In this document: piece by piece, positions 1-13,628 of the stretch | Layout: every line of letters begins with the position of its first letter | Numbering within the stretch: the first letter of the stretch is position 1 | Source: a virus | DNA: 47,794 bases | Direction: 5' to 3' (one strand) | IMG/VR virus record: IMGVR_UViG_3300008116_000070 | Span: 1 to 47,794 of that record | The notes under the pieces: generated by a model | Database searches by the model: none | Told to the model about the DNA's origin: nothing | What the model saw: the letters and a program-made list of their open reading frames with translations, nothing else | Position numbers and translations under genes: made by a program

Positions 1-252
1 AGTAACTCCAAGGGTGTAGCTAGTCGTAGTATTACCAGGAATGTTTGTGTCGTAAACAAGATACTGGTTATTAGCTAATGGGGCAGCAGCTTTTCGTATA
101 GCAATTCTATAGGTTGCTGCGGCTGTGCCGCGATTACAGACTGTGATGCTAGATACTACGGCTGAGGATCCAGAAGGAACTGCATATAGGGTTTCTCCAG
201 CATTAGATGCAGCTGCAGCCAGCTGACCCAGGACTTTATATATTGTCGCCAA
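1..252 (-). CDS. Virion-associated beta-rich protein, C-terminus cut by window edge
   Basis: The first 84 codons are visible; the rest lies beyond the left edge. I place the start at a TTG (250-252) because an AAGGAG site sits just upstream and the frame is open from there. The protein begins MATIYKVLGQLAAAASNAGE and continues as alternating Ser/Thr/Val/Ala strands (TLYAVPSGSSAVVSSITV, then a TYRIAI strand). The same plan of a short N-terminus, a 'Y.VPS...AV.' strand and a strand with paired hydrophobics is seen in the 100-aa protein at 8952-9254, so the two are probably related small beta-sandwich virion proteins. Its start overlaps the end of the glycosyltransferase gene by 17 bases, which places it in the same late transcript. 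Exact virion role unknown. Confidence 0.7.
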   Translation of the reverse strand, partial: MATIYKVLGQLAAAASNAGETLYAVPSGSSAVVSSITVCNRGTAAATYRIAIRKAAAPLANNQYLVYDTNIPGNTTTSYTLGVT

Positions 253-1309
253 GAGGGTGCTCCTTAGTGTAGAAAGCCAAGTTTGTTATTAGGCGTTGAT
301 CATTCGGGTTTAATTCTACGGCCTTAGTGCCGTATTGAATGGCTTTATCCGATAAACCTAGGTTATGGGCCGCTATAGCCGCATAGTCCCAGGGCGCAGA
401 ACCCCAGGCAAACTCCTCACATAAATACTCTAGGGGCTTTTCAGTAATTTCAAGTGCGTTTTCTGCGGCATCTAGACAGTCAAACCAACGGTTATTTTCA
501 TAGTACAGCTTTGCTAGTTCTACATAGGGCTCTCTTCTATCGGGAGCCTCATTAACTGCCTTCTTAAGCCAAGCTTCTTTTTCTGTAAATTCTTTCATAA
601 GTTTAGATATATACCTCATAGATGCTGCTCGTTCTGGTTTCCATACCGCTTTTGGTAAAGATAGGTGACGTTTAAATTCTTCAATGGCCGCATCAAATTG
701 TCCATAGAAGAATAATTCTCTAGCGTAGTAAAAGGCATTTCTATCGTCATACGGGTCTTCTTTTACAGACTGTGCAAGAAGGGGCATATATTGAGATCTA
801 GGCTTTGAGTTGTCCGCATGGTGGTGAATCTCTAAACCTATCCAGGTTTGAATCTCATCTATACGGTCGGTAGTTAATACTTCATGAACTGGGTGTTTCC
901 ACCGATAGCCGTGACGAGCATGTATCTTATCTCCACCGTACTGAAGGCCTGGAGTTCCGTCTTCATTCCAATTCCACGTGTACTTGTATCTTGGACGGGT
1001 AGTATCTTTTGACATTCGGTCTAGGTGCCAACGCCATCCAGGCACTAGAACTTCGTCCATATCCAAGGCTATACATATATCAATGTCGTTGGGTAAAGCT
1101 GCAAGGGCAGCGTTACGAGCATCATCAAAACGCCAAGGTTTTACAGAGATGTCAATGACATTTATGCCGTAGTTCCTGGCATATTTTTTAGTTAGGTCAG
1201 TAGAGCCAGTATCTGCAATTAGTAGATAGTCAGCTTCTTTTGCTGACTGATACCATTTTTCTACAAACTGCTCTTCGTTTAATGCAATCGTGTATACAGC
1301 TATTTTCAT
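236..1309 (-). CDS. Family 2 glycosyltransferase with C-terminal TPR repeats
   Basis: A 357-aa cytoplasmic glycosyltransferase expected to move a sugar from a nucleotide donor to an unknown acceptor. The N-terminal GT-A fold is recognisable from 'YTIALNEEQFVEKWYQS' (residues 6-22), 'IADTGSTDLT' (31-40) and the metal-binding 'ALDMDEVL' (81-88). The second half is helical with TPR-like units around residues 255-345 (for example LAKLYYENNRWFDCLDAAE and a unit ending AVELNPNDQ). This GT2-plus-TPR layout is common in bacterial and phage glycosyltransferases such as SunS-like proteins. It lies downstream of a collagen-like fibre gene and near two other sugar-transfer genes and a methyltransferase, which suggests modification of virion proteins. 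The acceptor is inference. Confidence 0.88.
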   Translation of the reverse strand: MKIAVYTIALNEEQFVEKWYQSAKEADYLLIADTGSTDLTKKYARNYGINVIDISVKPWRFDDARNAALAALPNDIDICIALDMDEVLVPGWRWHLDRMSKDTTRPRYKYTWNWNEDGTPGLQYGGDKIHARHGYRWKHPVHEVLTTDRIDEIQTWIGLEIHHHADNSKPRSQYMPLLAQSVKEDPYDDRNAFYYARELFFYGQFDAAIEEFKRHLSLPKAVWKPERAASMRYISKLMKEFTEKEAWLKKAVNEAPDRREPYVELAKLYYENNRWFDCLDAAENALEITEKPLEYLCEEFAWGSAPWDYAAIAAHNLGLSDKAIQYGTKAVELNPNDQRLITNLAFYTKEHPLGDNI

Positions 1310-1326
1310 TGGCCCTCCGATGGCCG

Positions 1327-1440
1327 TTATTCTTCAGGGAATACTAGGTCGTAACCTATTACTGTTCCCTCGTCGTCTCGTACTTCGAATTTTTCTGCGC
1401 CTGTGGCAGGGTCTATTCCTAAGCTTACTTTAGTTGTCAT
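1327..1440 (-). CDS. Small acidic protein (37 aa), unknown function
   Basis: A short gene whose ATG overlaps the TGA of the upstream collagen-like fibre gene by four bases (ATGA), a typical translational coupling. The product starts [20 protein letters not shown] and ends in an acidic VFPEE tail. The '[16 protein letters not shown]' stretch reads like a beta-hairpin. I do not recognise a family. Reality is supported by the coupling and by the fact that it fills the gap between two good genes. It could be a small fibre accessory or assembly protein. Confidence 0.65.
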
Positions 1441-3170
1441 GATAGTCTTCCCCAAGGTCCAACGGTAGTTGATGCAAACGATGCTACTGATGCCGGTAGG
1501 TCTGACTGCAGAGCCACTGCTCCAGTAATTCTTGGTGATAGTGTACTGATTGCAGATGGGTTTGGACCAAAAGCTGTGTACACGTTTCCAGGCGTAGTTG
1601 CTACTATAATGATTCCAATAGCGTATCGAGTTCCTGCTTGAAGCGTATAGGTTGCTGGAAGACCGCCAACTGTACTAAACACCCTGTTATATAGCGTGTT
1701 AGTTGAACTAAAGATTGTTGTATCTGAAGCTGTTTGGGCTACAAGTGTTGCTGTGTCATTTACAACCGTATATAAACCAAAACGTACTAGCGTTGCTCCA
1801 GTTGCCTGAGTTGTTCCGGAAACCACACTTATTGAGCTTATAGTGGCTGCCCACATTGGGGTAAACATTGAGAAGTAAACAGTTCCGCTAGACATTGTTC
1901 CCGTAGTGTTTCCGTATCTTGGGGCAACATCTACTATAGATAGGCTTTGATTTAGGTTTCCTGCAAGATTTGTAAAGGCATTTGAGTTAAGCTTTGCCAA
2001 AGTAACGCTTGCATCTGCAAGCTTTGCAGTGGTGACATTTAGATCAGCAATCTTACCAGTAGTGACATTAAGATCAGCTAACTTGGCAGTTGTTACGTTT
2101 AGATCTACAATCTTACTAGTAGTAACTGAATTTGTTGCTAATTTGTCCTCAGTAACATTAGAATCAACAATCTTTGCTGTTGTTACGGTGCCGTCAGTAG
2201 GGGTGCGGGTGTCTGATAGGCGAGTATCGGTTCCGTATACAACCTCAGTATTTGAAGCATTTCCTGTAACAGGTATGTTTTTTGTGGAAGCGGTTCCAAG
2301 ACCAGTTACTTGTGTGTTAGATATAGATAGTAGCGATTGATCTAGACCGAGTACTGCAGCTGTAGGGGTTCCAGTATTTGTTACTGGACCAGTTACTGAA
2401 ATAACTCCAGATGGACCGGTAGGGCCTAAATCTCCCTGTGGACCGGTAGGACCTTGAGCACCGTCTGCGCCATCTGCGCCATCTGCGCCATCTGGTCCAG
2501 TTGGGCCGGTTGCGCCAACAATCTGTCCTGCGCTATACCACTGTGTTCCATCCCAAACGTATACGTCTCCATCGGCATCCACAATGTATGCGTCATTAAT
2601 ATCGTTTCCTGTGGATGGAAGACTTGCAACATCAGCTACGCTACCAACAAGTGTAATAGGAACACCTTGTGGTCCCTGTGCACCAGTCGGTCCTGTTGGA
2701 CCGGTTACAGTTGATGCGGCTCCAGTAGGGCCAGTTACTCCCTGTGCACCGGTTGGGCCTGTAGGTCCGGTAGGTCCAGTAACTTGTGATGCAGCACCGG
2801 TTGGACCAGTAATGCCTTGAGCTCCAGTTGGACCTGTAGGACCAGTGGGTCCTTGTATTCCTTGTGGGCCTGTAGCTCCCTGAGGAATACCAAAATTTAA
2901 AACTGCGGCAGTTGCTGTTCCGCTATTTGCAACCGAGGCGTTTACTCCAGGATTTAAAGTTGTAGTTGTACCAACTGTAACTGTAGGTGTAGGTCCTGTT
3001 GGTCCAGTAACACCTGAGGAATAAACTAATGAGTTCCAAGGAGTTAAACCGTTACCTACTTTGAAACGTCCAGTGTCTGTTTCAAATCCTGCTTCACCTT
3101 GAGAAAGAATTGGGTTTGCCAAGTTCCATTCAGAAGCAGTGCCTCGTCTAAACTGAATCTTTACTGCCAT
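1437..3170 (-). CDS. Collagen-like tail fibre with Mtd-type N-terminal domain
   Basis: A 577-aa fibre. Residues 3-50 ([12 protein letters not shown], then [17 protein letters not shown]) match the N-terminal beta domain of major tropism determinant-like phage fibres, which anchors them to the virion. Collagen-type Gly-X-Y repeats rich in GPT triplets fill about 53-61, 97-170 and 219-254. A 50-residue non-collagen module (172-219, with [16 protein letters not shown]) separates them and recurs in the 721-aa fibre. Residues 329-394 hold a ten-residue repeat of the type [10 protein letters not shown], common in trimeric fibre shafts. The C-terminal 170 residues are beta-rich and probably form the receptor-binding tip. 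It directly follows the 121-aa collagen-like gene and is coupled to the 37-aa gene. Confidence 0.9.
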
Positions 3171-3536
3171 TTAAACTCCTTGCACATTTCCGCCGTTGAG
3201 AGTAATGCCGCCGCCGTATACCGAGTTTGGAACGCCACCATCTACGTTGTCGTTTTCTGGTCCAGTAGGTCCAGTAGGCCCTAGAGGTCCAGGAGTTGTA
3301 GACACTGGTCCAGTAGGTCCTGTTGGGCCGGTTATTCCAGGCCCTGTAGGGCCCGTAGGACCGGTTATGCCGGGACCGGTAGGACCTGTTGGTCCAATAG
3401 GTCCTGTAGGTCCTAAATCTCCTTGCACACCTTCAGATACTAAAAGGCGCCAAACTGATCCATTCCAATACCAAGTAGTCTCACCAACAGTGAACTGTTG
3501 ATTGAGCGTGGGGGTATCTGGAAAATCTATAGGCAT
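3171..3536 (-). CDS. Short collagen-like fibre protein
   Basis: A 121-aa protein. The first 38 residues form one short module ([19 protein letters not shown]) related to the W-containing beta modules of the 721-aa fibre. About 60 residues of Gly-Pro-Thr triplets follow (residues 37-95), and a short tail ([14 protein letters not shown]) ends the protein. No receptor-binding tip is present, so it may be a linker or a truncated fibre that trimerises with a partner. Its stop codon directly abuts the ATG of the 577-aa fibre, whose AAGGAG site lies inside the end of this gene. No clear ribosome-binding site is seen for its own ATG. Confidence 0.82.
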
Positions 3537-3557
3537 AGTATGACAGTATAAGGCGCT

Positions 3558-4571
3558 TTATTTACCGTGTCTTTGCCAATATTCTTCTCGCCACTTAGGA
3601 AACATCTCAGATAGGTCATATCCTAGGTATTCATAGAGCTCAGAAATAGGCCGTTCAGTACCAAAATGCTCAGGCCCAATAGTTCCAGCAGCAATGGCGT
3701 CTATACATCGATCTGTTCCAGCCATTTTTTCTTTTTTCCATTCTTCTGGAAAATCTTGACTTGGCTTATTCATAGCTAATTTAGGAACATTAGATTTTTG
3801 AATAACTTCGTATCCTGGAAATAAGTGATGTATGGGTACTTTTATAGGTATGTATACGTTCCACCCATGAGTGAATGCACGCATACTGTTATAGACTTCT
3901 TCACCCCAAAAAACAATCCATTCGGGCTGTGGAAGGTCTATAGCATATTTTGCTGGAGCAAAAAAGAAGCAACCAGACGTGTACCATCCTCTATCCGAAT
4001 CTTCTTTTACTTGTTTTTTAACATAGTAATGTACTGGCTTTAATTCATATCCGTTTAAAAATTCCCCCTTAGAGCCAAATACATTAAAGCTAGTCTGCTC
4101 AAAAAACGTATCATTATAGTGATCCTTCATTCCGTAGGATCCATCCTCTAAGTTATAAGATTGTTCAGGGCTACCTTTTGGCCACCAAGGTTTTGGATAA
4201 CCAGCAATTATTGCTTTTGGATAATCTATTTTCTTATGTTGCTCTGTTAACCAAGTATCCCAATTAGGCTCAAATCTTGTGTGAGAATCAATCTGTAGTA
4301 CATAATCGTACTCCTCAGTAAGCCACTGATTAGCTAAGTTCCTAGCCTTACATACACTAAACCATTCTCCAGCAAAGTCTATTGTAGACATTACTTTTCC
4401 ACCATGGTTATTTTTTATCCCATACTTATCCTCTTCCCCCGAAGTATTTGGAAGAACAGTTATATAGCATCCAACCCTGATCTCCTCTGGTCTTTCTGCC
4501 ATTTTAAATGCGTGGTCTATAGTGGATTGAAGCAATGGGTCTCTGTATGCTGCAAGTGATATGTAAATCAT
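3558..4571 (-). CDS. GlcNAc-transferase-like glycosyltransferase (Skp1 GnT / GT60 type)
   Basis: A soluble glycosyltransferase of about 337 aa. The start 'MIYISLAAYRDPLLQSTID' and the 'VLQIDSHTRFEPNWD' motif, whose DSH acts as the metal-binding DxD equivalent, are hallmarks of the family that includes Dictyostelium Skp1 GlcNAc-transferase and trypanosome polypeptide GlcNAc-transferases (Pfam GlcNAc, PF11397). Those eukaryotic enzymes add GlcNAc to hydroxyproline or Thr of proteins. I prefer the ATG at 4571, which overlaps the upstream methyltransferase stop as ATGA, over an upstream TTG at 4583. Placement beside Thr-rich collagen-like fibres makes fibre glycosylation a reasonable guess. Donor and acceptor are not proven by the sequence. 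Confidence 0.85.
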   Translation of the reverse strand: MIYISLAAYRDPLLQSTIDHAFKMAERPEEIRVGCYITVLPNTSGEEDKYGIKNNHGGKVMSTIDFAGEWFSVCKARNLANQWLTEEYDYVLQIDSHTRFEPNWDTWLTEQHKKIDYPKAIIAGYPKPWWPKGSPEQSYNLEDGSYGMKDHYNDTFFEQTSFNVFGSKGEFLNGYELKPVHYYVKKQVKEDSDRGWYTSGCFFFAPAKYAIDLPQPEWIVFWGEEVYNSMRAFTHGWNVYIPIKVPIHHLFPGYEVIQKSNVPKLAMNKPSQDFPEEWKKEKMAGTDRCIDAIAAGTIGPEHFGTERPISELYEYLGYDLSEMFPKWREEYWQRHGK

Positions 4572-5107
4572 TTTACCCACCAATCTTCAAAAGGAAACCT
4601 AGGGTTATTTTGAGAGCACACGTTTTCTTTATACAAGACATATCCTTTATCTAAAAGAATCTCTTTTTGTTTATTTTTTATAATAAGGTTGTCTTTGCTT
4701 ACGTACAAGTCATGCTCAAAAGTTATTGTTTTAAATTCATAGCCAGATTCTAATATTTTTTCTAAAGCTTCTAGGGTCTGTGTAGCAGGCTCTATATCTA
4801 GAGATAAATAATCTATGGTCTGGGGCAATTCGTGCCCCATTAAAAGCTTTTTATAGTCTAGTTTTGTTGCGTCGGCTACTATGCATGGGGAGGACCGTTT
4901 ACTGATGTACTGCTTTGCTCTTTCTGGAATTATCTCTATAGCTAACCCCGTCCAGCCATACTCTACCTCTAAAACATATGTATTAGATATGCTTTCCGAG
5001 TCATAGGCGCCTATCTCTAAAAAAGTTCCACCAACTTTATAGTCATTTTTAGACAGTGCAAATAGATCTTGTCCGGCTTGACTTTTAAAGTTGCTCAACT
5101 TCTTCAA
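4568..5107 (-). CDS. FkbM-family methyltransferase
   Basis: A 179-aa SAM-dependent methyltransferase. The glycine-rich SAM-binding region is 'GGTFLEIGAYDSESISNTY' (about 27-45), followed by 'GWTGLAIEIIPERAKQY' (acidic residue binding the ribose), then 'CIVADATKLD' and 'DYLSLDIEPATQTLEAL'. The SQAGQDLF start is typical of FkbM proteins, which usually O-methylate sugars or polyketides. It is shorter than many FkbM enzymes but contains the core. It starts at TTG, since no ATG fits, overlapping the upstream gene by 23 bases. It sits between two transferase genes, so methyl capping of a transferred sugar is the likely role. The substrate is inference. Confidence 0.85.
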   Translation of the reverse strand: MKKLSNFKSQAGQDLFALSKNDYKVGGTFLEIGAYDSESISNTYVLEVEYGWTGLAIEIIPERAKQYISKRSSPCIVADATKLDYKKLLMGHELPQTIDYLSLDIEPATQTLEALEKILESGYEFKTITFEHDLYVSKDNLIIKNKQKEILLDKGYVLYKENVCSQNNPRFPFEDWWVK

Positions 5108-5768
5108 ACCCCTTATTGATAAAGTCTTTTCTAATATCGTTGCCTATGTATGTTTTATATGGAACCCATACATGCTCAAATATAGCCATGTCTTTATTTA
5201 TAACTATTGGTATCTCTGCTTTTTCTGCAGCCTTACAAAAGTTAATGTCTTGACTCATAGGGCCATTTTCATCCGTGGACGAATAAAAATAAATAGGTAT
5301 TTGTTCAATTATTCCGTCTTCTTTTGGATAGTTAGCCTTGATTACAAAGTCATTTATGCGATCAAATACTTCTTTCTTAATTACTACCATATCTAGATCC
5401 ATAAGCTTTGCAGTTATAGGACTATCTGAATCCTGATTAGGGGAGTCATTTAATACTGCTTTATAAAATTGTTCTGGAGCAAAGTATTGTTTTGTTGGTA
5501 CGCCCTCAATTAAAGATTCGCCCTTAATTATCCCTACTAAATCTGTAGCTACCCATTGAATATGTGGCTTTATAAATATTAGGGCGTCATAGTTTTTTTC
5601 TATTACAATTTCTGCCGCTTCGTTTCGAAAACTAAACTCATCCGGAGACCACATAAATCTAAATTCAATACCTTCTTTTTCTCCCAGAGCGTAGGTTTCA
5701 GCAAGGCTTTTTGCAAAAAAAGCAGATATCTGGGGATTTGGCGATTGAGTAGATATTAGTACTTTCAT
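5085..5768 (-). CDS. Putative glycosyltransferase-like protein
   Basis: A 227-aa protein starting MKVLISTQSPNPQISAFFAK. It looks like a minimal GT-A type transferase as found in T4-like and cyanophage genomes: an N-terminal Rossmann-like strand, then 'FMWSPDEFSFRNEAAEI' and 'YDALIFIKPHIQWVATDL' in the place of the DxD loop, then 'GPMSQDINFCKAAEKAEIP' near the C-terminus, where such enzymes carry a D/E-D acceptor motif. No canonical DxD is visible, so activity is uncertain. It leads the glycosylation cluster (four genes with 23- and 4-base overlaps or short gaps) directly after a terminator that separates it from the fibre genes. Confidence 0.6.
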   Translation of the reverse strand: MKVLISTQSPNPQISAFFAKSLAETYALGEKEGIEFRFMWSPDEFSFRNEAAEIVIEKNYDALIFIKPHIQWVATDLVGIIKGESLIEGVPTKQYFAPEQFYKAVLNDSPNQDSDSPITAKLMDLDMVVIKKEVFDRINDFVIKANYPKEDGIIEQIPIYFYSSTDENGPMSQDINFCKAAEKAEIPIVINKDMAIFEHVWVPYKTYIGNDIRKDFINKGFEEVEQL

Positions 5769-6102: not shown

Positions 6103-8949
6103 TTATGCCTCCTTAGATCTTACTAGGTAGTAGTTTGGATTTCTCCAAGTACGTACGCTGTCCTGTTCAGAACCACCTGCGATGATTTCTACGCCACCGA
6201 GGCAAGCCTTATTATAGGAGAAGTACCACCAGAAGCTACCAATACTTCCAGAGTTACCGCCCTGATAGTTAGGGGTAGGACGAGAGTTAATTGGGATATG
6301 AGAAACAATTACTTTAGGCTCTGCAGAAAGGTTGTCCATATCAAAGACATAGTAACCTGTGCTGTCAGGCTTTTCGCAGATCGCATATCGACCGTCGTAC
6401 CATACGTGAGGTGTACGGTTCATAGTAGTGTCTTGAGACCAATATGGGCTAGAGGTTGTATGCAAACGACGCCATCCGGTTTGTGTAGCAGCAAATGGGG
6501 CTACACCAGATTCCTGGCTATACTGAAGGAGTGAACGTCCATCCCAGAATATTGTTCCCTCTGGAATACCTGTACGGCTTAGACGACCGGCTCCAAACTT
6601 AACAACTTGCACAAAGTTATTAGAGATTGCGTCATGTGTAAATGTATAGGTCTGAGGTACGCGGCCATCTCCTTGCCACTGTGAGCTGATCCAGTTATAG
6701 CTTACGAAGCGTTGTGTAAATCCATACTCCCAGTTAAAGAGGTTCCAGATATTATAAACTTCCCACACATCAGAGTCGTATGGACGAATGAAGTGGACTC
6801 CTGGACGATATGCACGGCCGTTTGAGAAGATTGAGATTTCACCTGGGTTTTCAGTTGAGGAAATGAACGGTTGACCTTGCGCCCATGTTCTAGAGGTATC
6901 GTCAGATGTATCATCACCACCCTGGTTGTAATCTAGATAATCAAATCTTCCGGTATCTTCTTCGACCCACGCTGAAACTTGACGCCATGGAGAGCGGTTG
7001 AATGTGGAGAATGGATAGTTACCGTTGTTCCAAACAAATCCCAAACGAGATGGTCTAAAACCAGTTACATAATAACGACGCATTTGTGGGTCGTAAATAG
7101 ATTGAATGATTTGCATATCATTTAGAACTGGATAAATTTCTCCAGCTGTAGAGATGAGTTCTGCACCCATGCTCTCAAAACCATGTCGGCTTCTACCTGT
7201 AGAGTCATATGTTGATCCAGCTGAACGTCCTCCACGAACTTCAGAATCCCAGGTATTTTGACCATAGGATGCCCAGATCACAGCTCTAGCGAATGGGTTT
7301 CTGTGTAAACCAAATGCAAGAACGGTATTTAGACCTACAGACATTTCGCCACGAGGACGATATGCTCCAATAAGATCTACTTTCTTTGGCCTTGTAACGT
7401 CTACATAGTCGTGGTTATGACGAGATAGCGCTGAACTACCATAGTTGTTTCGGAAGCGGAAGAAACGACCATTCCAAGAAGAACCTGCTGGCTGCCAAAT
7501 AAAGGTTGAACCATAAGTATCATGTCCTGGACGCATTGCTACTGGGTAGAAATCTTCCATTTCAAAGGACTTATCTAACCAACGATCAAGTGACTGAGTA
7601 GCGGTGTCATAGATCCATAGACGGCGTCCCCAATAGCGGTCTCCGTTTCCTGGAGCTGTGTTGTCTGTGGTATATGTACGACGACCGATAACACCAAACG
7701 AAGTTGCGTTGTAACGGAAAATCTGACCGCCACGGAACCAAGTTGATGCCTCATTTAGACGTGATGGGGGGGTTACCTTTGCCCATACGTTGTTAGTTGG
7801 GTCGTAAATCTGATAGTCAGTTGAACCACCATCAGTGTTACCAATACCTTGAGTTGGGCTAGCAAGGAAGTAGTTATTTACATAAGATCCTTCATGCCAA
7901 GTATCAGCTGCTGAAGTGATTGCTTCACGAACACCTGTTGCTAGGTTATAACGAATAAATCCGTTACTTGAACGCTCTTGCTGCCAGTTGTACCAGAAGC
8001 GAACGCCATTTATAACGTGAGTAAACGACATTTGAGGACCATCAACATATGAGTTATAGCCTGTTGCGCCAAGGTTCCACGCACCAACAAATGTCCAAGT
8101 ATCAGTAGCTTTTGTATAGATGTATAGGTATGTATCTACTGAAGTATATTGAACAGAGTTAATTGTCTGGGTTCTGTTATCAACGCAGCGGAACCAAACA
8201 ATAAGGTCATCTCCGGTATCCCACATTACTGCACGGCGTAGACGCTGCTCAGCAAATGTAGTTCCGTTTTCAATAGCTTGTGGAGGTAGAGGAATGTCTG
8301 CAAGACGAGTCCAAGTATTTGTCGTATTGGACATGGACTTGAAGAAGAAGTTTCCAGCAATACCTGAGAAGGTAGTTGAGGAGGTACCAATTCCTTGTCC
8401 TGTACTTGGGGTGTTACGGAAACGGTATACGCCATCTCCGGCTGAGTTATATGTCCAGCACACCCAAGCTGCAGTGCTTCCAGTTCCATCAAGACGAGCT
8501 GTCATTGGGTTACGGCTGGTATTCATTCCGTAACCTTCGTAAGCAAACCAGTCAGTTGACTTCTCAGTGTGTGCGTAAACATCGCCAAGACCATCGATTG
8601 CAGATCCTGTACGAGATGGTGTTGAAGAGCTGTACTTAATAATAAGAAGTGTTGAACCAGTACCAGCAGTGTTTCCACCAGTAGATGAGCTCAAAATACG
8701 GATACGAGCAATGGTTCCATTATGAGTAAATGCTTTATTCTTAGCAAGAGCTACTGTCTCAATAGGAGAAGTAAGATTACCAACAGCGTAGATAGCTACG
8801 GTTAGTGGCTCTTCTTGAGCACGAAACTCATAGATTCCGTTAGCATTTAATTCAGTGGTGTTGTATTCAGCACCAGGAGCGGCAGCAAAGCTATAGGTTA
8901 ATGCACCTACGCCTTGGCCAGATGTTGAAGGATAGACTAGAGCTCCCAT
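6103..8949 (-). CDS. Large putative tail protein with kelch-like beta-propeller repeats
   Basis: 948 aa, rich in Trp, Tyr, Arg and Asn, and probably a virion protein for host contact. The N-terminal 110 residues form a beta domain (IYEFRAQEEPLTVAIYAVG). After that, units ending in a strand with Y or W recur at irregular spacing, e.g. YLYIYTKATDTWTFVGAW, YQIYDPTNNVWAKVTPPSR, LWIYDTATQSLDRWLDKSF and YYVFDMDNLSAEPKVI. Each has the 'hydrophobic-Y-D-x-x-x-x-x-W' signature of kelch-type propeller blades. It lies between two beta-rich virion genes and before the fibre genes. No enzyme motif is seen. Propeller assignment comes from motif reading only. Confidence 0.7.
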   Translation of the reverse strand: MGALVYPSTSGQGVGALTYSFAAAPGAEYNTTELNANGIYEFRAQEEPLTVAIYAVGNLTSPIETVALAKNKAFTHNGTIARIRILSSSTGGNTAGTGSTLLIIKYSSSTPSRTGSAIDGLGDVYAHTEKSTDWFAYEGYGMNTSRNPMTARLDGTGSTAAWVCWTYNSAGDGVYRFRNTPSTGQGIGTSSTTFSGIAGNFFFKSMSNTTNTWTRLADIPLPPQAIENGTTFAEQRLRRAVMWDTGDDLIVWFRCVDNRTQTINSVQYTSVDTYLYIYTKATDTWTFVGAWNLGATGYNSYVDGPQMSFTHVINGVRFWYNWQQERSSNGFIRYNLATGVREAITSAADTWHEGSYVNNYFLASPTQGIGNTDGGSTDYQIYDPTNNVWAKVTPPSRLNEASTWFRGGQIFRYNATSFGVIGRRTYTTDNTAPGNGDRYWGRRLWIYDTATQSLDRWLDKSFEMEDFYPVAMRPGHDTYGSTFIWQPAGSSWNGRFFRFRNNYGSSALSRHNHDYVDVTRPKKVDLIGAYRPRGEMSVGLNTVLAFGLHRNPFARAVIWASYGQNTWDSEVRGGRSAGSTYDSTGRSRHGFESMGAELISTAGEIYPVLNDMQIIQSIYDPQMRRYYVTGFRPSRLGFVWNNGNYPFSTFNRSPWRQVSAWVEEDTGRFDYLDYNQGGDDTSDDTSRTWAQGQPFISSTENPGEISIFSNGRAYRPGVHFIRPYDSDVWEVYNIWNLFNWEYGFTQRFVSYNWISSQWQGDGRVPQTYTFTHDAISNNFVQVVKFGAGRLSRTGIPEGTIFWDGRSLLQYSQESGVAPFAATQTGWRRLHTTSSPYWSQDTTMNRTPHVWYDGRYAICEKPDSTGYYVFDMDNLSAEPKVIVSHIPINSRPTPNYQGGNSGSIGSFWWYFSYNKACLGGVEIIAGGSEQDSVRTWRNPNYYLVRSKEA

Positions 8950-11462: not shown

Positions 11463-13624
<2,162 letters not shown>

Positions 13625-13628
<4 letters not shown>

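Follow-up and report, generated by a model that had tools for sequence, protein, structure and literature searches.

The window analysed here is the whole of IMG/VR virus record IMGVR_UViG_3300008116_000070 (G000; 47.8 kb), and our subject is a gene cluster at positions 236–5768 in which two collagen-like proteins are encoded beside an enzyme, hereafter GT2-TPR, that joins a family 2 glycosyltransferase (GT2) domain to tetratricopeptide repeats (TPR). The portal protein is 57–58% identical to those of Streptomyces phages (e.g., BRock and Alone3), and the GT2-TPR enzyme shares 65% identity with its counterpart in Actinomycetia phage DSL-LC01, a genome from a lake metagenome with a predicted actinobacterial host according to the available text of its report (PMC10611076); the host of the window phage is likely a freshwater actinobacterium. 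A preliminary description of this DNA had placed two Gly-Pro-Thr (GPT)-rich collagens here together with GT2-TPR, an enzyme of family PF11397 and two further transferase-like genes. Pfam and PHROG searches confirmed this cluster, which is set out below with one further gene of interest.

236–1309, minus strand: GT2-TPR glycosyltransferase, SgtA-like, 357 residues (Pfam, PHROG, SgtA homology, fold); proposed threonine (Thr) O-glycosyltransferase of collagen-like fibres
1327–1440, minus strand: small open reading frame (ORF), 37 residues; related ORFs present in 47 of 77 GT2-TPR upstream intervals
1437–3170, minus strand: collagen-like tail protein, 577 residues, Mtd_N domain and GPT-rich shaft; proposed acceptor
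3171–3536, minus strand: short GPT-rich collagen-like tail protein, 121 residues (tail-fibre PHROGs); proposed acceptor
3558–4583, minus strand: PF11397 (N-acetylglucosamine, GlcNAc) glycosyltransferase with a polypeptide N-acetylgalactosamine (GalNAc)-transferase fold (Pfam cut-off, predicted structure)
4568–5107, minus strand: methyltransferase-like protein, FkbM-like by motif only
5085–5768, minus strand: glycosyltransferase (GT)-like protein lacking a DXD motif, assigned by eye; precedes collagen genes at 16 of the 57 loci mapped, counting the window
11463–13628, minus strand: larger GPT-rich collagen-like tail protein, 721 residues (tail PHROG); possible further acceptor

Transcription would run from the GT-like gene through the methyltransferase-like gene, the PF11397 gene, the short collagen and the longer collagen to GT2-TPR. 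The first three genes overlap one another (GT-like and methyltransferase-like at 5085–5107, methyltransferase-like and PF11397 at 4568–4583), the two collagen genes abut, and the 37-residue ORF has an ATG overlapping the stop codon of the longer collagen and stops 17 bases short of the start codon of GT2-TPR. The DNA of the region matched nothing among phage records, and the cluster is near-identical in other IMG/VR contigs.

The longer collagen (1437–3170) carries an Mtd_N domain (58.4 bits) and passes the cut-off for Collagen PF01391 (43.6 bits against 27.2), while the short one (3171–3536) has no Pfam match at E ≤ 1 and matches tail-fibre PHROGs at E values down to 6.3e-12. The larger collagen-like fibre claimed for the same arm is indeed present at 11463–13628, with a tail PHROG match at E 4.6e-114. 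Counted only in runs of three or more, Gly-X-Y triplets number 38, 17 and 133 in the 1437–3170, 3171–3536 and 11463–13628 products, respectively; Thr occupies Y in 20/38, 11/17 and 75/133 of them, and 15, 9 and 41 are GPT. Since Thr fills so many Y positions and the triplets hold only 0, 0 and 2 lysines (Lys), Thr is the likely hydroxyl for any modification; a hydroxylysine route was rejected on the same Lys counts.

GT2-TPR passes the Pfam cut-offs for both Glycos_transf_2 (26.1 bits against 23.3) and TPR_14 (30.6 against 23.5) and matches PHROG 13126, ‘beta-1,4-glycosyltransferase’, at E 1.7e-117. The N-terminal GT2 domain is followed by a C-terminal TPR array, a layout that Pfam gives identically for SgtA of Clostridioides difficile, and the aspartates of the DXD motif (D83 and D85) were invariant in 50 sequences. 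The first fold matches of a structure model built with 50 sequences (mean predicted local distance difference test, pLDDT, 94.2) were SunS and ThuS, peptide S-glycosyltransferases, and a SunS chain superposed on model residues 1–269 with Z 22.3 and a root-mean-square deviation (rmsd) of 2.4 over 260 residues (VIA-align). Further Foldseek matches include the TPR domains of O-GlcNAc transferase and GmaR, which is also the best natural match to GT2-TPR by sequence in the PDB (E 1.8e-4). We take the acceptors of SunS/ThuS and GmaR to be peptide or flagellin; these acceptors are not collagen, which sets the three enzymes apart from the system proposed here.

The closest proven relative is SgtA. In the available text of PMC7157674, this 358-residue enzyme has a GT domain and TPR, is encoded immediately upstream of bclA3, and uses UDP-GlcNAc and Mn2+ to attach GlcNAc in beta-O-linkage to Thr in the collagen-repeat peptides of BclA3. 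We located sgtA at L433:318–1394 beside a GPT-rich ORF, and it was the sole match at E ≤ 1e-8 in the whole C. difficile genome searched. Residues 3–349 of the window enzyme align with SgtA residues 4–354 (phmmer; 85.4 bits, E 1.9e-22 at Z=1e6), and the GT2-TPR family profile scores 127.7 bits against SgtA. The two systems thus share enzyme length, domain content, near full-length homology and a GPT-rich collagen neighbor, and they differ in setting (spore exosporium versus phage tail) and in gene order: sgtA precedes bclA3, and the phage enzyme gene follows its collagen gene.

Genomes of the same bacterial class point in the same direction. A match at E ≤ 1e-25 was present in 34 of 291, with 14 matches at 1e-117 to 1e-134. 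A collagen ORF lay at 8 of 20 Clostridia loci with flanks (from 19 genomes) versus 0 of 20 control regions taken from 11 of those genomes (p 0.0033), and six of the eight collagens were Thr-rich. In a quick tree, the highest-scoring Clostridia enzymes lay nearer the phage enzymes than the SgtA group did.

In viruses, we examined the best 80 loci of 180 stretches matching GT2-TPR. A collagen ORF (at least 10 triplets) was found in 61 of these 80, and within 3 kb in 52. Among loci with at least 1.5 kb upstream, enzymes at least 69% identical to that of the window were preceded within less than 1 kb by a collagen ORF on the same strand in 41/45 cases (35/39 after removing identical proteins; the misses were L047, L062, L063 and L065), against a background in the same loci of 16/276 other ORFs of at least 250 residues. 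Most close relatives share a constant module of short collagen, longer collagen and GT2-TPR, and the part upstream of it varies. This recurring order, together with the near-identical copies in other contigs, indicates that the cluster is not a chance arrangement. Where at least 9 kb was available upstream, it contained a collagen in 19 of 20 loci at 69% identity or above and in 9 of 11 below. A pool of 97 proteins with usable flanks, which leaves out 19 with short flanks and no collagen seen, had collagen within 3 kb in 69 cases and not in 28; clustering the pool at 50% identity put collagen-linked members in 7 of 12 groups, among them 4 of the 7 made up of phage proteins only. Separately, a human-gut phage fragment (L513, MT838491.1) encodes a GT2-TPR of 44% identity, with a collagen ORF 68 bases away.

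Viral contigs sampled blind to glycosyltransferases revealed which collagens the enzyme accompanies. A (GPT)3 scan gave at least 119 loci and a (GP[K/Q/E])3 scan at least 118 further loci, near-copies included; 110 and 109 of them, respectively, contained a collagen ORF with 8 or more triplets. Defining as Thr-rich those loci with Thr in at least 40% of the main ORF's Y positions, the two samples held 93 and 11 Thr-rich and 17 and 98 Thr-poor loci. A profile of the window enzyme and 62 relatives (threshold E 1e-10) matched at 18/93 and 0/11 Thr-rich and at 0/17 and 0/98 Thr-poor loci, that is, at 18 of 104 versus none of 115 sampled loci (Fisher 6.5e-7); two further matches (L172, L214) were excluded because their loci lacked a qualifying collagen ORF. 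A Pfam tally agreed with this result, with Glycos_transf_2 in 11/128 ORFs downstream of Thr-rich-set collagens and absent from the 25 of 56 Pfam families listed for 115 ORFs downstream of other-set collagens.

Because of the SgtA precedent, the linkage to Thr-rich collagens in phages, the linkage to collagens in Clostridia and the peptide-glycosyltransferase fold, we consider it likely that GT2-TPR is a polypeptide O-glycosyltransferase which the phage devotes to its own collagen-like tail fibres. Genomics and a biochemical precedent give good support to such a role in glycosylating collagen Thr, and the claim that the phage glycosylates Thr of its fibres is thus supported for this enzyme but not for the others in the cluster. 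From the observed architecture, SgtA homology, DXD motif, fold and linkage, we infer activity, donor, sites, timing and benefit as follows. Within Gly-X-Thr triplets, the Thr hydroxyls at Y would receive a sugar from the GT2 domain (D83xD85); analogy suggests GlcNAc, donated by host UDP-GlcNAc. Until the triple helix forms, the C-terminal TPR superhelix would keep hold of the extended chain. A hydrated, protease-resistant and perhaps receptor-tuned shaft would be the likely outcome. Host sugar donors are assumed since neither PF01370 nor PF00483 had a match in the window or in G002, a 99-kb relative used beside it in Pfam family scans. The PF11397, methyltransferase-like and GT-like genes, which form an overlapping set upstream of the collagens, may do something else.

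Several observations weigh against this reading. Below 69% identity, a collagen lay less than 1 kb upstream in only 1 of 21 loci, and 75 of the 93 Thr-rich loci in the GPT sample had no GT2-TPR in the fragment examined; two of the 18 matches were weak (L159, E 1e-11; L177, 8e-24). Homologues in the jumbo phages PaBG, Lu11, HRDY3 and Y3 (29–35% identical) had no collagen in their 6-kb flanks, and none was seen in the flanks of L375 and L376, where GT2-TPR lies near a PF11397 gene. Two of the Clostridia collagens were Thr-poor (Thr fraction of Y 0.30 in L474 and 0.24 in L479), and the SgtA group sat on a long branch. Full-length ThuS and SunS matched the model at Z 21.5–21.6 with an rmsd of 7–8, the helical part superposing poorly, and the next fold matches (Z 17.7) were a BBSome TPR subunit and WrtF, a glycan-acting fucosyltransferase. 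The collagen linkage could also be passive, via a shared host-range island.

A broader proposal, in line with the preliminary description, is that all the cluster enzymes modify the same fibres one after another, with GT2-TPR priming Thr, the PF11397 enzyme extending the glycan or adding sites, and the methyltransferase-like protein methylating the sugar. The single strand and overlapping genes are compatible with such a pathway, which we regard as possible but doubtful, and the properties of the PF11397 enzyme lend it some weight. The suggested alignment of the 3558–4583 product to PF11397 held, at 104.3 bits against a curated cut-off of 21, and no PDB sequence matched the protein at E ≤ 1. 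Residues D99, H101, W108, D109 and E229 (DxH, WD and E) were invariant in 10 sequences, as were the same positions in 34. We take these to be active-site-like residues and PF11397 to be the Skp1 GlcNAc-transferase family, GT60. A model from 34 sequences (pLDDT 89.3) matched ppGalNAc-T2 (Z 21.8; 264 residues at rmsd 3.0) along with further polypeptide GalNAc-transferases (GT27), after which scores dropped to 16.4. With best fold matches of this kind, and SunS/ThuS for GT2-TPR, both predicted structures look like peptide glycosyltransferases, though a shared fold is no proof of function. The conserved active-site-like residues and the fold make a protein acceptor plausible for the PF11397 enzyme, which probably also glycosylates a protein that may or may not be collagen.

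The surroundings of PF11397 genes argue against collagen as their general acceptor. In the best 80 of at least 566 related stretches, with flanks of up to 8 kb, collagen ORFs were found at 12 loci (less than 3 kb away in 7), and Thr-rich collagen only in four near-identical relatives of the window. Transferases in related phages with no collagen-like gene, and with another proven acceptor, were what the preliminary description held would tell against its proposal; for PF11397, the 68 of 80 loci with no collagen in the flanks examined do so. GT2-TPR was present at 5 of the 80 (three near-identical window relatives, L375 and L376), and the collagen beside the PF11397 gene of L329 is a Thr-poor GPQ collagen. 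In favor of a shared role, L084 has a divergent PF11397 copy placed between its collagen and GT2-TPR genes, GT2-TPR and PF11397 are near neighbors in L375 and L376, and 13 of 50 records, most of them retrieved via GT2-TPR, carry PF11397; nine of these 13 came solely by that route, some being near-copies. An association therefore exists in part of the phage group, but across the sample PF11397 is not dependent on collagen. The gene looks like a late addition to the module, since the part upstream of the constant collagen-GT2 module varies and PF11397 is found in few mapped loci.

The preliminary description had also given hydroxyproline, beside Thr, as an acceptor for eukaryotic members of this family. 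No PF13640 oxygenase was found in the window or G002, two records whose completeness is not established, which makes a hydroxyproline acceptor less likely here and distinguishes the phage from the GT60 precedent. Elsewhere, a PF13640 gene lies less than 2 kb from PF11397 in 10 of 50 records (G346–G351, G362, G363, G371 and G386; several near-copies) and within 1 kb in G012, G034 and G035. Genes for DUF6065 (PF19541) flank PF11397 in L006, L355 and L366, three of its nearest outside relatives (from a group 38–43% identical), and in L366 a 2-oxoglutarate (2OG) oxygenase does so too. This neighborhood is reminiscent of the hydroxylase/GlcNAc-transferase pair of Skp1 modification. An epimerase-family gene adjoining PF11397 in G034 (C1 64990–66490) is perhaps that phage's own sugar supply. 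Assignment of c4, a protein cluster upstream of collagens, to DUF6065 found weak backing: a profile of four DUF6065 proteins reached a best E of 7e-5, with 8 of 16 members listed, and a c4 member had no Pfam match.

In the 57 loci that were mapped, the window among them, the full order from GT-like through methyltransferase-like and PF11397 to collagen appeared in four (the window and three near-identical relatives) and the same order minus PF11397 in three, while the GT-like gene directly preceded collagen, unaccompanied by the other two, in nine, and 41 had no GT-like gene in the mapped stretch. The methyltransferase-like gene was present in only 7 of the 57. Its FkbM label, which rests on motifs, found no backing: PF05050 had no match in the protein, the whole window or the 99-kb relative, the protein's one Pfam match is weak and to an unrelated family (E 0.043), no PDB sequence matched it at E ≤ 1, and a 55% identical relative in L022 likewise lacks a Pfam match. 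Methyl-capping is unsupported, and so is a concerted glycan and methyl-cap pathway. The GT-like protein matches PHROG 1574 (unknown function; E 2.8e-5) and nothing among phage records, and its close relatives have KPH, EPH, HPN, NPN or SPD at the DXD position. It was called transferase-like by eye and through a 15% identical L063 protein that has VDSD there and matches Glycos_transf_2; the window protein may be inactive or metal-independent, if a glycosyltransferase at all. Also in favor of a shared pathway, L063 (5–4456) holds a row of GT-like, FkbM (PF05050), NAD-dependent epimerase, GT25 and GT2-TPR genes on a contig that ends before any collagen is visible.

Alternatively, Thr in Y may serve triple-helix hydration only and GT2-TPR may modify another virion protein, such as the 6103–8949 product, the tail tube or a capsid subunit. 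Virion glycosylation in mycobacteriophages was reportedly described by Freeman in 2023, as cited in the available texts of PMC12619734 and PMC12363180. By these accounts the phages glycosylate their own virions with their own enzymes, a likeness to our proposal, with capsid and tail tube as acceptors, a difference from it. No mycobacteriophage was among 67 phage records matching GT2-TPR, although the presence of Che8 and Corndog in the searched collection was not confirmed. Thr is also described as the predominant Y residue of bacterial collagens (PMC8968730, available text), and the jumbo-phage homologues are situated among structural genes with no collagen nearby. Set against these points, the collagen immediately upstream of GT2-TPR in nearly all close relatives far exceeds the background for other ORFs, and the enzyme is missing from all sampled Thr-poor loci, so that we judge another virion acceptor unlikely.

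Slightly less probable still is that the glycosyltransferases alter the host envelope, through superinfection exclusion or receptor change, and merely share the late region with fibres. In the available texts, authors read the glycosyltransferases of freshwater actinophages, Planktophila phages E7 and F5 among them, as serving cell-wall change or DNA protection (PMC10202952) and those of pelagimyophages as altering the host envelope (PMC7029224), enzymes that may or may not belong to this family. E7 and F5 also carry, within a variable island, part of a tail fibre gene and two collagen-like genes (PMC10202952). However, the closest proven relative of GT2-TPR and the best fold matches of it and the PF11397 enzyme act on peptides, and the enzyme tracks Thr-rich rather than Thr-poor viral collagens and adjoins collagen genes in bacterial chromosomes. 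Glycosylation of phage DNA, a further published reading in the available text of PMC10202952, is very improbable here, given homology and folds that indicate protein acceptors and genes lying in a tail-fibre region.

Returning to GT2-TPR as a proposed fibre-modifying enzyme, other genes near phage collagens hint at further modifications. One protein cluster has as its L064 member a flavoprotein of the tryptophan-halogenase family (PF04820, E 3.3e-112), and the cluster also occurs in L036, L074–L076 and L087 (18433–20004). The halogenase-like gene lies between the collagen genes and GT2-TPR in L074–L076 and, by annotation, in DSL-LC01, where several genes annotated as collagen and one as tryptophan halogenase precede GT2-TPR; its product is possibly another fibre-modifying enzyme. 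Among the 128 ORFs downstream of Thr-rich collagens (GPT sample, L114–L232), 10 matched 2OG-FeII_Oxy_3, two a PLOD GT domain and two GT25, and 2OG-FeII_Oxy_3 was found in 3 of 115 ORFs downstream of the Thr-poor set; these genes represent possible other phage routes of collagen modification. Tentatively, aquatic phages may carry a modular fibre-modifying kit, in which a constant SgtA-type Thr glycosyltransferase is joined by exchangeable enzymes and the resulting strain-specific fibre glycan serves host range or escape from defence. We are similarly cautious about the exchangeable parts, which could comprise PF11397 enzymes, methyltransferases, flavin halogenase-like proteins and, elsewhere, 2OG oxygenases and GT25/PLOD-type glycosyltransferases.

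Viral modification of collagen has a precedent in Mimivirus, which hydroxylates and glucosylates its own collagen in the available texts of PMC9546862 and PMC11838735; its hydroxylysine route differs from what the near absence of Lys from the phage triplets would allow. We found no report of glycosylated phage collagen fibres in the searched literature, judged by titles and abstract openings and with most subscription papers outside its coverage. What is proposed here is phage virion glycosylation by an SgtA-type enzyme, with collagen fibres as the probable acceptor.

Many phage tail fibres have collagen-like shafts, whose Thr in Y has been put down to hydration. If our proposal is true, such enzymes would offer small catalysts for glycosylating recombinant collagen peptides. 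Phage glycosyltransferases encoded beside collagen genes would gain another reading, next to the DNA protection and host-envelope change suggested for other phages, whose glycosyltransferases may or may not be of this family, in the available texts of PMC10202952 and PMC7029224. At least some phage collagen-like shafts would then be glycoproteins, made so by a partner enzyme whose type has been proven biochemically.

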